A DNA stretch of 64,000 bases from Epilithonimonas lactis (GTDB lineage Bacteria; Bacteroidota; Bacteroidia; Flavobacteriales; Weeksellaceae): the NCBI RefSeq assembly GCF_900110605.1, contig NZ_FOFI01000003.1, positions 62,001 to 126,000 of the forward strand. The letters are read 5' to 3'. The number at the start of each line of letters is the position of its first letter. The stretch's first letter is position 1. Below, piece after piece: positions 20,277 to 54,025 of the stretch. The position numbers and the translations under genes are program-made. Under the pieces are notes generated by a model, which did not search any database, had not been told where the DNA came from, and worked only from the letters and a program-made list of their open reading frames with translations.

Positions 20277-21704
20277 ATGGAAAATTCTAAAAAAGTTTTA
20301 ATTGTCACCTATTATTGGCCGCCTGCTGGTGGACCTGGCGTTCAGCGTTGGTTGAAGTTCGCCAAATACCTTCCCGAGTTTGGCTGGGAACCGGTTATCT
20401 ACACGCCCGAAAATCCGAGTTATCCTTTGGTAGATGAGACTTTGACCAAAGAAGTTCCGCAAGATCTGAAAATCGTGAAGACCAATATTTGGGAACCTTA
20501 TCAGATTGCGGAAAAATTCAGTAAGAGCAATAAGAAATTCAAAGGTGGACAGTTTGATGTTGGGAAGAATCAGTCTTTTGTTTCGAAGCTGTCGATTTTC
20601 ATTCGAGGAAATTTTTTCATTCCAGATGCCAGGAAATTTTGGGTGAAACCTTCGATTAAATTTTTGAAGGATTATTTGAAAGAAAATCATATTGATACGA
20701 TTGTCACGACTGGTCCGCCGCACAGTTTGCACTTGATCGGACTTGGACTGAAAAAGGAATTGCCAGATCTGAAATGGATCGCTGATTTCCGTGATCCATG
20801 GACAGAAATCTCGTATTATAAACATTTGAAACTGACTTCTGGTTCTGAAAGAAAACACAGATATCTTGAGAAATCGGTTTTTGAAAATGCTGATTTGACA
20901 CTCGCAACGAGCTACACGGACGCAGAGAATTTCAGAAAATATGGAGCGAATGCATTTTGTATTACTAATGGGTTTGATAAGTTGGAGGATTCGAAAGTTG
21001 GAGAGTTGGAGAGTCAGAGCGTTGGAGTGTTGGAGAGTCAGAGCGTTGGAGTGTTGGAGAGTTTGAGCGTTGGAGCGTCTGAGAGTTCACTTCACGAAAG
21101 TATTGGAACTCTAAAACCCTCAAACTCTAAAACCCTCAAACCCAAATTTACTTTGAGTTATGTTGGCGTTTTGGAGCAGTTGAGGAATCCGGAGAATCTT
21201 TGGAAAGCTTTGATCACACTTTGTGAAAAACATCAGGAGTTTGCTGAGGATCTTGAATTGAAATTTGTTGGACGAGTGGACGATAAAATTTTGAATGAGA
21301 TCGAGAATTCTGTTTTGAAAAATAACATCTTGAATCTTGGTTATCTGGCGCACGATGACTCTGTGCAGGAAATGGAAAATTCTAATCTTCTTTTGATCAC
21401 TAATTTCCCGAATGAGAGTTCAAAAGGTATCATTCCAGGAAAGTTGTTTGAATATCTGGCGACGGGAAAGAAGATCATCTCTTTTGGACCAAAAGATGCG
21501 GATGTGGAAACGATTTTGGATAAAACAAAAGCTGGGAAACATTTTGATTATTTGGAGAGTTTGGAGATCGAAATGTTTATTTTCTCGCTATATGAGGATT
21601 GGAAAAGTGGAAAATCTATTACGAATTCGGCAAACATTAATGAATTTAGCAGACGTGAATTGACGAAGCAACTTGTGGCTAAGTTGGAGAGTTTGTGGGT
21701 TTGA
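20277..21704 (+). CDS. Glycosyltransferase family 4 protein with repeat-derived insert
   Basis: 475 residues. The N-terminal domain begins VLIVTYYWPPAGGPGVQRWLKF, the donor-side region has FVGRVD, and the C-terminal half has NESSKGIIPGKLFEYLATGKKI with the conserved E of GT4 enzymes. It probably acts on a surface polysaccharide. Residues about 240-289 do not belong to the family: they are encoded by 24-bp and 16-bp tandem words (20998-21142) and read as low-complexity GELESQSVGVLES. The C-terminal LESLWV also comes from similar words that continue past the stop. Confidence 0.85.
   Translation: MENSKKVLIVTYYWPPAGGPGVQRWLKFAKYLPEFGWEPVIYTPENPSYPLVDETLTKEVPQDLKIVKTNIWEPYQIAEKFSKSNKKFKGGQFDVGKNQSFVSKLSIFIRGNFFIPDARKFWVKPSIKFLKDYLKENHIDTIVTTGPPHSLHLIGLGLKKELPDLKWIADFRDPWTEISYYKHLKLTSGSERKHRYLEKSVFENADLTLATSYTDAENFRKYGANAFCITNGFDKLEDSKVGELESQSVGVLESQSVGVLESLSVGASESSLHESIGTLKPSNSKTLKPKFTLSYVGVLEQLRNPENLWKALITLCEKHQEFAEDLELKFVGRVDDKILNEIENSVLKNNILNLGYLAHDDSVQEMENSNLLLITNFPNESSKGIIPGKLFEYLATGKKIISFGPKDADVETILDKTKAGKHFDYLESLEIEMFIFSLYEDWKSGKSITNSANINEFSRRELTKQLVAKLESLWV
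20998..21142. repeat. Word-repeat insert inside the glycosyltransferase gene
   Basis: A 24-bp unit beginning GAGAGTCAGAGCGTTGGAG is present at 21009-21032 and 21033-21056 exactly, and at 21057-21080 with changes. A 16-bp unit AACTCTAAAACCCTCA is tandem at 21107-21122 and 21123-21138. The second unit reads as the complement of the GAGGGTTTTAGAGTT-type words of the first kind. All lengths keep the reading frame. Confidence 0.9.
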
Positions 21705-51367: not shown

Positions 51368-51390
51368 ATTTAAAATTCGTAAATTTGACC

Positions 51391-52002
51391 ATGGCAAAAA
51401 CCCTAAAAATATATCCAGAAAACCCACAGGAAAACCTTATCAACGAAGCTGTTAAGGTATTGCAGAACGGTGGCGTTATCATCTACCCTTCCGATACGAT
51501 TTACACGATCGGTTGTGATATTTACAATCACAAAGCGATGGAAAGACTTGCCCAGATCAAAGGGATCAAATTGGATAAGCACAAGTTCTCTATCATTTGT
51601 AACGACCTTAGCCATCTTTCCGAATTTACAAAACCGATAGAAACGGCAACTTTCAGATTTTTGAAAGCGCATTTGCCTGGGCCTTTCACGTTCATTTTGG
51701 AAGCCAATAGAAATTTACCGACATCTTATAAAGGTCATAAAACGGTTGGAATCCGGGTTCCTGATCATATTGTTCCGCAAATGATTGTCGAAAAATTGGG
51801 TCATCCAATCGTTTCAACGTCCATTCACGCTGATGATGAGATTTTGGAATATTCTACAGATCCAGAATTGATTGCTGAGAAATATGAAAAATTGGTTGAC
51901 CTCGTCATCGATTCTGGTTATGGTGACAACACCGCCTCCACAATCGTTGACCTGACTTCTGGCGAACCGGAAATCCTGAGACAAGGGAAAGGGATATTAT
52001 AA
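51391..52002 (+). CDS. L-threonylcarbamoyladenylate synthase (Sua5/YciO/YrdC)
   Basis: Makes threonylcarbamoyl-AMP for the t6A modification of tRNAs that read ANN codons. 203 residues from MAKTLKIYPENPQ (ATG at 51391; a TTG two codons earlier is less likely). YPSDTIYTIGCD, KHKFSIICNDLS, LPGPFTFILEAN and HPIVSTSIH are typical. The C-terminal Sua5 domain is absent, so it is the short YrdC/YciO type. It follows the tRNA cluster after one terminator. Confidence 0.92.
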   Translation: MAKTLKIYPENPQENLINEAVKVLQNGGVIIYPSDTIYTIGCDIYNHKAMERLAQIKGIKLDKHKFSIICNDLSHLSEFTKPIETATFRFLKAHLPGPFTFILEANRNLPTSYKGHKTVGIRVPDHIVPQMIVEKLGHPIVSTSIHADDEILEYSTDPELIAEKYEKLVDLVIDSGYGDNTASTIVDLTSGEPEILRQGKGIL

Positions 52003-52004
52003 AG

Positions 52005-52028
52005 GTCTTCGAGAGCCTCAAACTGACA
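52005..52028. repeat. TTCGA...CTGACA repeat, intergenic copy
   Basis: GTCTTCGAGAGCCTCAAACTGACA-type element (24 bases; first 6 GTCTTC, last 6 CTGACA) between the tsaC-type gene and yaaA. Three relatives lie inside prmC (53357, 53397 and 53690). The rest of the gap to 52121 holds A+T-rich words such as CATAAACTTTAAACCATTC. Confidence 0.75.
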
Positions 52029-52996: not shown

Positions 52997-54025
52997 ATGA
53001 AGCTTTCCGAAATCAAGATTCTTTTTCAAGCAGAACTTTCTGAACTCTATTCCAAATCTGAGATTGAGGAATTGTTCTCGATTTTCTGTGAACATTATTT
53101 GGATTTGAATAAGATTGAATTGCGATATAGTTTGGAAAACGAATTATCAGAAAGCAATTCCAACAAATTTTCTGGAGTTATTTGTGAATTAAAAACAGGA
53201 AAACCTTTTCAACAGATCCTTGGTGAAACGGAATTTTATGGAATGAAATTCTTTGTGAATGAACATGTTTTGATCCCAAGACCGGAAACGGAGGAACTTT
53301 TGGAGTTGGCTATAAAAAGGATTCAAGATTCAAGATTTGAGATCCAAGAATCAAAGGTCTTCGACTCCGTTCAGACTGACAATTTAGAAACAGAAAGTCT
53401 TCGAGAATCTCAGGCTGACAAAGTGGAATCAGAGCTAACTCCTCAGCATGAAACTGATGACGATAATGAACGCTCTAACTCTCAAACACTCAAACACTCA
53501 AACACTCCAATAAAAATTCTCGACATTGGAACCGGAAGCGGAATTATTCCGGTTGTTTTGAAGAAACACTTTCCGGAAGCGGAAGTTTCGGCGATCGATA
53601 TTTCTATTGATGCTTTGGAAGTGGCGAAAAGGAACGCGGAATTTCACAGGACAGAAATTAATTTCATCCACCAAGATTATTTGAATAAAGTCTTTGACTC
53701 CGCTCAGACTGATAGCGAAAGCTATGATGTGATCATCAGCAATCCGCCTTACATTGGCATTGAGGAAAATCCTGAGATCGAGGATTCTGTAAAAGGTTTT
53801 GAGCCAAACTTGGCGCTCTTCTCTCCTACTTCGGACGCTTTGATCTTCTACAAGAAAATTGCGGAAGACTGCAAAGATCATTTGGCGGAACATGGACTTT
53901 TGTTTTTAGAGATCAATCAGAAATTGGGGAAAGAAACTTTGGAATTGTATCAAGAAAGTTTTTCCGAAGTTGAGCTTTTGAAAGATATTTCGGGGAATGA
54001 CAGGATGATCTTTGGGAGAAAATAA
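52997..54025 (+). CDS. prmC: Peptide chain release factor N5-glutamine methyltransferase with inserts
   Basis: Methylates the GGQ glutamine of release factors. 342 residues, against about 285 for typical members. The N-terminal helical domain ends with IPRPETEELLELAI (about 93-106), the SAM-binding motif LDIGTGSG is at 175-182 and the catalytic NPPY at 249-252. Residues about 107-171, between the domains, are not PrmC sequence: they are encoded by intergenic-type repeats (53320-53508). A second small insert (about 233-241, VFDSAQTDS) lies just before the NPPY strand. Both keep the frame, so the protein may still work. Confidence 0.93.
   Translation: MKLSEIKILFQAELSELYSKSEIEELFSIFCEHYLDLNKIELRYSLENELSESNSNKFSGVICELKTGKPFQQILGETEFYGMKFFVNEHVLIPRPETEELLELAIKRIQDSRFEIQESKVFDSVQTDNLETESLRESQADKVESELTPQHETDDDNERSNSQTLKHSNTPIKILDIGTGSGIIPVVLKKHFPEAEVSAIDISIDALEVAKRNAEFHRTEINFIHQDYLNKVFDSAQTDSESYDVIISNPPYIGIEENPEIEDSVKGFEPNLALFSPTSDALIFYKKIAEDCKDHLAEHGLLFLEINQKLGKETLELYQESFSEVELLKDISGNDRMIFGRK
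53320..53508. repeat. Repeat-derived insert inside prmC
   Basis: Contains AAGATTCAAGATT-type words (from about 53322), two TTCGA...CTGACA elements (53357-53381 and 53397-53420) and three tandem TCAAACACT words (about 53481-53507). Together they keep the prmC frame and encode a hydrophilic linker. Confidence 0.88.
53690..53714. repeat. Third TTCGA...CTGACA element in prmC
   Basis: TTTGACTCCGCTCAGACTGA (from 53693) inserted between conserved strands of the methyltransferase domain; adds about nine residues in frame. Confidence 0.8.

Follow-up and report, generated by a model that had tools for sequence, protein, structure and literature searches.

We confirm that the gene for release factor glutamine methyltransferase, prmC, carries two in-frame inserts built from repeats that are dispersed through its own genome, as a sequence-only reading of the same DNA had proposed. 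The repeat words of these inserts recur elsewhere in the genome, the inserts are present in some relatives and absent from others, the same enzyme loops hold different repeat families in different species, and selection on the larger PrmC insert is relaxed. The window, meaning the whole stretch of 64,000 nucleotides that was analysed (G000:C8:62001-126000), belongs to a 4.09-Mb genome in 14 contigs (G000). Our genus sample consists of G000 and 22 further genomes grouped with it as one genus (23 in total).

Two repeat-built inserts in PrmC

The open reading frame at 52997-54025 matches the PrmC family TIGR03534 with 231.6 bits (cut-off 199.1), and its AlphaFold model matches E. coli PrmC in the PrmC-RF1 complex (2b3t_A, E 4.8e-21). 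The protein has the SAM motif, NPPY is invariant in the PrmC alignment of 44 rows, and the nearest named relatives of the protein are those of Epilithonimonas and Chryseobacterium. The gene and its parts in the window are as follows.

52997..54025, + strand: prmC, release factor glutamine methyltransferase, 342 aa (TIGR03534; fold match)
53315..53353, + strand: ordinary 13-residue linker (KRIQDSRFEIQES) with AAGATTC words, no insert (length as in 39 of the 54 short-linker rows; similar words in L026 and L035)
53354..53512, + strand: site 1 insert, ~53 extra residues (linker of 66 aa versus mostly 12-13 aa in uninvaded relatives)
53357..53381, + strand: REP-like arm of family A (GTCT-TCGACTCCGTTC-AGAC-TGACA), read as VFDSVQTD (pattern match; stem covariation over copies)
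53397..53420, + strand: REP-like arm of family B, read as SLRESQAD (pattern match)
53473..53511, + strand: octamer array (CTCAAACN)n, read as SNSQTLKHSNTP (pattern match)
53690..53714, + strand: site 2 insert, the third arm (family A, two mismatches), read as VFDSAQTD (pattern match; filled in 13 of the 23 genus genomes)

The words that had been claimed inside prmC are present, far above shuffle expectation: AAGATTCAAGATT at 53325-53337, TTCGACTCCGTTCAGACTGACA at 53360-53381, TTCGAGAATCTCAGGCTGACA at 53400-53420 (match start ~53399), three TCAAACACT words at 53482-53506 and the two-mismatch arm at 53693-53714. In the 64-kb window, arms of families A and B were each found twice, compared with 0.05 and 0.04 expected from 100 shuffles, and the octamer triplet gave 17 overlapping hits with 0.00 expected.

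To separate insert from native sequence, we define the PrmC linker as the stretch between LELAI and KILDIGTGSG, compared over 78 non-identical rows with L100 and L101 excluded. The linker has 7-19 aa in 54 of these rows (13 aa in 39 and 12 aa in 5) and more than 22 aa in 24. The 54 short-linker proteins are 270-292 aa long, 40 of them 282 or 283 aa, and the 342 residues in the window are indeed longer than usual. The gain at site 1 is smaller than the ~65 residues first proposed; the first 13 residues of the 66-aa linker match the short linker, which leaves ~53 as added. The AAGATTC heptamer words had been counted as part of the insert but belong to the native 13-aa linker, which uninvaded relatives share and which in some of them (L026, L035) contains the same words. 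The second small insert was correctly recognized as the same element, and it contributes ~6 extra residues between DYLN and YDVIISNPPY.

Alignment of PrmC from relatives shows the insert to be variable. Site 1 has arms in 14 of the 23 genus genomes, with only a truncated arm in G016, and the 9 genomes without arms keep the short linker; the added residues are thus not conserved in repeat-free relatives. Beyond the genus, site 1 is occupied by other repeats, including arms in both orientations in L018, TGTCATTCT...AGAATC-type units, some of them decayed, in L034, L058, L059 and L067, and TTCGACAAGCTCAG-type arms with octamers in L050, L053 and L070. Three Chryseobacterium PrmC proteins (L056, L057 and L064) have mutually similar linkers of 42-44 aa with no recognized repeat at site 1 despite this length, and possibly represent an old, decayed insert.

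Selection differs between the two parts of the protein. In comparisons of G000 with three congeners, dN/dS is 0.163, 0.100 and 0.146 for the PrmC core and 0.712, 0.983 and 0.798 for the insert (G000 residues 108-169; 38-62 codons) in the same three pairs. Purifying selection thus acts on the core, with the insert evolving almost freely. The AlphaFold model, computed from 44 rows, has a mean pLDDT of 81.5, with blocks around site 2 at 62-89 and residues 126-168 below 50, a low value that may partly reflect the thin alignment at the insert. These residues are unstructured in the model, in agreement with the expectation that the insert loops out, and the insert is predicted to be disordered.

It is hardly conceivable that the extra residues are an ordinary native extension in which the repeat words arose by chance. 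PrmC linker length does vary, as the three long Chryseobacterium linkers with no recognized repeat illustrate, but a native extension is contradicted by the 9 short-linker congeners, by chance expectations of 0.00-0.05 and by the same words in other genes. We also consider it very improbable that the insert is retained for a useful role in PrmC, such as an altered contact with the release factor. The 14 congeners with arms at site 1 would be compatible with such a role; its absence at this site in the other 9, the unrelated sequences that occupy the same site in other species, the near-neutral dN/dS and the predicted disorder all argue against it.

Arms and tandem words across the genome and in other genes

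The arms have the form NNCT-TCGA-core-CTC-AGNN-TGACA and are 22-26 bp long. At the variable stem positions, 42 of the 56 exact copies are Watson-Crick at both pairs, with six pair types represented; over 2000 shuffles this number averaged 11 and never exceeded 20. Among neighboring arms at the G000 loci scanned, 11 of 13 are head-to-head, two are head-to-tail and none is tail-to-tail. Single arms of the window fold no better than shuffles (4-5 outer pairs, once 8 with a bulge), and one complete intergenic arm pair folds strongly (z -7.46). Since each strand has one stop-bearing and two stop-free frames, an arm is open in four of six frames, and the host genes make use of at least three (FDSAQTD/LREPQPD; FESLRLT/STPLNVT; VSLRLSK reversed). 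The octamer arrays in the insert are not palindromic; with a unit length of 8, the CTCAAACN array yields the stop-free peptide LKxSNxQT in all three forward frames.

A genome-wide search that tolerated three mismatches or fewer found arm A at 32 places and arm B at 51, versus 1 and 0 for the reversed patterns, and the general arm without mismatches at 56 versus 0 in the control. We inspected all 83 A/B arm places: 57 are located between ORFs, 15 within short ORFs (104 codons or fewer) and 11 within longer ones. Nine of these 11 fall in six identifiable genes, which encode PrmC (3), RsmE (2), a P-type ATPase, diphosphomevalonate decarboxylase, NadD and the C-terminus of an FkbM-type methyltransferase. 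The suggested search for the words inside other genes therefore finds them in several other ordinary enzymes. One match, in an ORF at C8:505263 that we take to be RadA-like, has three mismatches in apparently conserved coding sequence and was set aside as chance; the L134 ORF was left uncounted because its arm lies upstream of a plausible start.

The octamer has 73 hits genome-wide, of which 30, at 15 places, were inspected. Octamers are in frame at 7 of the 15 places, in six genes (PrmC, MurB, two glycosyltransferases, MenE-like and LuxE-like). The reversed octamer pattern (51 hits versus 73) can match the same arrays, and shuffles were used instead as the control. Five overlapping hits to the heptamer triplet fall at two places, one in PrmC and the other in a long ORF that has no family name. 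Elsewhere in the window, a 476-codon glycosyltransferase-like ORF at 20277-21704 has an in-frame octamer insert at ~20976-21147, with octamers in both orientations (KVGELESQSVGVLES... and TLKPSNSKTLKP); the variant used is GTTGGAG, which keeps the reverse side free of TGA. A family B arm also lies at 52007-52028, five bases past the stop of the upstream ORF 51385-52002.

Orthologues of other host genes in the genus, with the G001 fragments of RsmE and MurB dropped, have the same pattern of filled and empty loops. In RsmE, one loop is without insert in 10 of 22 genomes and filled in 12. It holds an A..B inverted pair in G000, G014 and G005, a related arm with reversed B in G017, A with CAACC words in G004 and G022, B with CAACC-type words in G015 and G008, B alone in G021, decayed B in G012, heptamer-like words in G018, and the same plus CAACC-type words in G010. 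Judging from the sequences, the A arm in G004, G022 and G005 seems to be nested in the remains of an older arm. In NadD, one loop is without insert in 13 of 23 genomes and filled in 10 by two families in two frames: a B arm read as FESLRLT or similar in six, an A arm read as STPLNVT in three and a decayed A in one. The inserts of the P-type ATPase and diphosphomevalonate decarboxylase correspond to gaps in the alignment to solved homologues. In the ATPase (L121, G000:C9), the arm is in the nucleotide-binding part, and a second low-complexity stretch (HQNTKHQTPNTHQ) resembles another tandem word.

In MurB (L218-L239), nearly all 22 species have CTCAAAC-like octamer words before LFLGGGSN with the length hardly changed, as if the words had replaced native codons one for one. 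These octamers are not shown to be an insertion; the sole clear insert in MurB is the arm of G012, read as LRQAQCDN. Since protein length does not change to match these words, a word inside a gene need not mark an insertion. Octamer and heptamer words may have arisen in place by replication slippage of native codons, with only the REP arms being foreign, a proposal to which we give somewhat less than an even chance. The near length-neutral MurB words are consistent with it, as is the native 13-aa linker of some uninvaded PrmC relatives, which is made of heptamer words. Slippage in place does not readily explain why the same octamer words occur at many intergenic places, some of them adjoining arms (L129, L160).

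Turnover of filled sites and the search for a mover

Genomes of the genus have 10-129 exact arms each, and at least one exact arm is present in 57 of the 148 genomes searched, with 0 for the control in all 148. Genomes with more exact arms tend to have more filled sites (Spearman 0.46, p 0.026, n=23, relatedness not corrected for). We mapped the states on a five-gene nucleotide tree that includes the host genes minus their gapped parts and has several weak branches. The minimum number of changes is 5 for PrmC site 1 (shuffled-label mean 7.4), 5 for RsmE (7.5), 7 for PrmC site 2 (7.7) and 6 for NadD family B, which is present in 6 species (5.4). The states of PrmC site 1 and RsmE partly follow the tree, and those of site 2 and NadD are scattered about like shuffled labels. 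Sister species with a support of 100 differ in their states: G009 and G015 at PrmC site 2, RsmE and NadD, G004 and G006 at RsmE, and G016 and G022 at PrmC site 2 and RsmE. G000 and G014 (100/99 in the protein tree) differ at NadD. These differences imply a fast turnover of filled and empty states, or alleles moving between species. One repeat can also take the place of another outside genes, since an intergenic site (G000:C8:524040, L120) holds a family A arm in G000, where the matching place in G014 has a family B arm in decay.

The patchiness could come mainly from interspecies homologous recombination of filled and empty alleles, together with gene conversion among repeats, more than from new insertions. 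We regard this as possible but rather doubtful. In its favor, NadD family B needs as many changes as it has species, no fewer than shuffled labels do, and the intergenic site at C8:524040 differs in arm family between G000 and G014. However, the A and B arms of NadD differ in their 5'-side frame and in their flanks, and PrmC site 1 and RsmE each need fewer changes than shuffled labels, on a tree with some weak parts that was built partly from the host genes themselves.

Comparison of 400 kb each of G000 and G014, with few informative sites, revealed no target duplication and no definable ends. It tallied 13 arm clusters when both directions are counted, and for 4 of these the other genome had no exact arm. 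The comparisons made thus contain no insertion in progress and no strain-level polymorphism. The genome has one Y1_Tnp gene (L217, G000:C7, around 317834-318178), and a scan of its 3.3-kb locus at up to three mismatches found neither a family A arm nor one of family B or C. This RAYT-like gene has GTCGC...GCGAC palindromes on both sides, which are probably a REP family moved by the resident Y1_Tnp and distinct from the arms studied here. With other palindromes at its flanks and no arms nearby, the resident Y1 transposase is not supported as the mover of the arms.

Interpretation and comparison with known systems

We are confident, short of certainty, that dispersed repeats entered enzyme loops, and that in-frame, stop-free copies in flexible segments survive and drift near-neutrally. 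The genome hosts small dispersed repeats, namely REP-like arms (single or in head-to-head pairs) and tandem octamer words. Under this explanation, the sites where their copies land would include loops and linkers of ordinary enzymes. Most in-gene insertions would be lost, and the survivors would be those that keep the frame, read stop-free and fall in a flexible segment; the added protein would then drift almost neutrally. The copying step may be transposition or recombination. Different families would recur in the same few loops since no others tolerate an insert, and perhaps also because repeats already present act as targets for further ones. The added stretches are probably floppy and neutral, and we infer that PrmC activity is unharmed by its insert. 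A broader reading, against which we lean slightly, is that a few loops of conserved enzymes are standing landing pads, where over a genus unrelated repeat classes arrive, decay and are followed by others, nested repeats included. Translation-fit repeats might then steadily supply new disordered segments, because this vocabulary is unusually translatable (arms in four of six frames, octamers as one peptide in three forward frames).

In more than 20 sequenced species of one genus, named type strains among them, these loops exist as filled, empty, decayed and refilled alleles, a ready-made natural series. The conversion of selfish repeats into protein, the rate at which such segments decay and whether they carry a cost could thereby be tested directly in free-living bacteria; in contrast, the Rickettsia case is confined to obligate intracellular bacteria. 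The inserts also help to explain odd lengths and low-complexity words in annotated Chryseobacterium-group proteins.

In-frame REP insertion is already known, from Rickettsia palindromic elements (RPEs) and from CGTC and GTAG REPs. The available portion of the work on CGTC/TGTC-tagged REPs (Di Nocera, De Gregorio and Rocco 2013, PMC3733652) describes in-frame entry of CGTC and GTAG REPs into genes in several phyla, lists Bacteroidetes among the phyla with CGTC repeats, places different REPs near the same recB site in two Xanthomonas species, and assigns RPE-4 and RPE-6 of Rickettsia to the CGTC/TGTC-tagged superfamily. Like our arms, these REPs are described there as short hairpin units with a TGTC end, predominantly in head-to-head pairs, with some copies in frame within genes. 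No transposase gene flanked by the repeats is reported in that portion; CGTC REPs are said to be without a dedicated transposase, which fits the arm-free locus of the one Y1_Tnp gene. The TGACA end of the arms, as reverse complement, gives TGTC(A) beyond the pairing positions, in accord with the unpaired end tag of the superfamily, and the orientation counts (11/2/0) agree with its head-to-head predominance and tail-to-tail rarity.

The stem, loop and CCA tail of that superfamily, as far as the same portion of PMC3733652 describes them, have no clear fit to the arms. Its stem is given as 8-9 bp with a loop of 4-5; here the outer NNCT/AGNN pairing covaries, and single arms fold weakly. An A-T first stem pair is not a constant feature of the arms, with A opposite T in 31 of 54 copies, and no CCA-like tail was found, the preceding three bases being mostly AAA or GAA and CCA not among the eight commonest. 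The arms are also mixed here with tandem octamers, and the same loops are reused across the genus. By sequence features the arms resemble TGTC-tagged REPs most closely, and we claim no membership. Repeats flanking a Y1 transposase gene, as in RAYT-moved REPs of the GTAG type, are not seen for families A, B and C.

The likeness to Rickettsia palindromic elements drawn by the sequence-only reading is apt as a way of working: in the accessible text of PMC3733652 and PMC2996958, these palindromes are found in frame within a wide range of unrelated genes, usually where the protein is unstructured. Its wording that the sequence is different may be too strong, because RPE-4 and RPE-6 share the superfamily that the arms resemble most, a comparison based on their description. 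Unlike the Rickettsia elements as described there, the present repeats belong to another phylum with free-living hosts, have shorter units, and include several unrelated repeat classes in one loop. According to the part of PMC2759123 at hand, the enterobacterial RU-1, RU-2 and RU-3 are likewise small dispersed repeats with open frames within genes, but with units of 103-168 bp in Enterobacteria compared with arms of 22-26 bp here. The intergenic heptamer GGGAATC of Xanthomonas, in the available part of PMC4692102, is similar in its short tandem words, mostly intergenic with some in genes, and differs in being G-rich, quadruplex-forming and of another sequence. Within titles and the beginnings of abstracts, we found no account of such inserts in Epilithonimonas, Chryseobacterium or other Bacteroidota, nor of several classes of repeat, among them tandem words, occupying one set of loops again and again across a genus. 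What is new in comparison with these systems is the bacterial group, the mixture with tandem words and the reuse of the same loops by different families.
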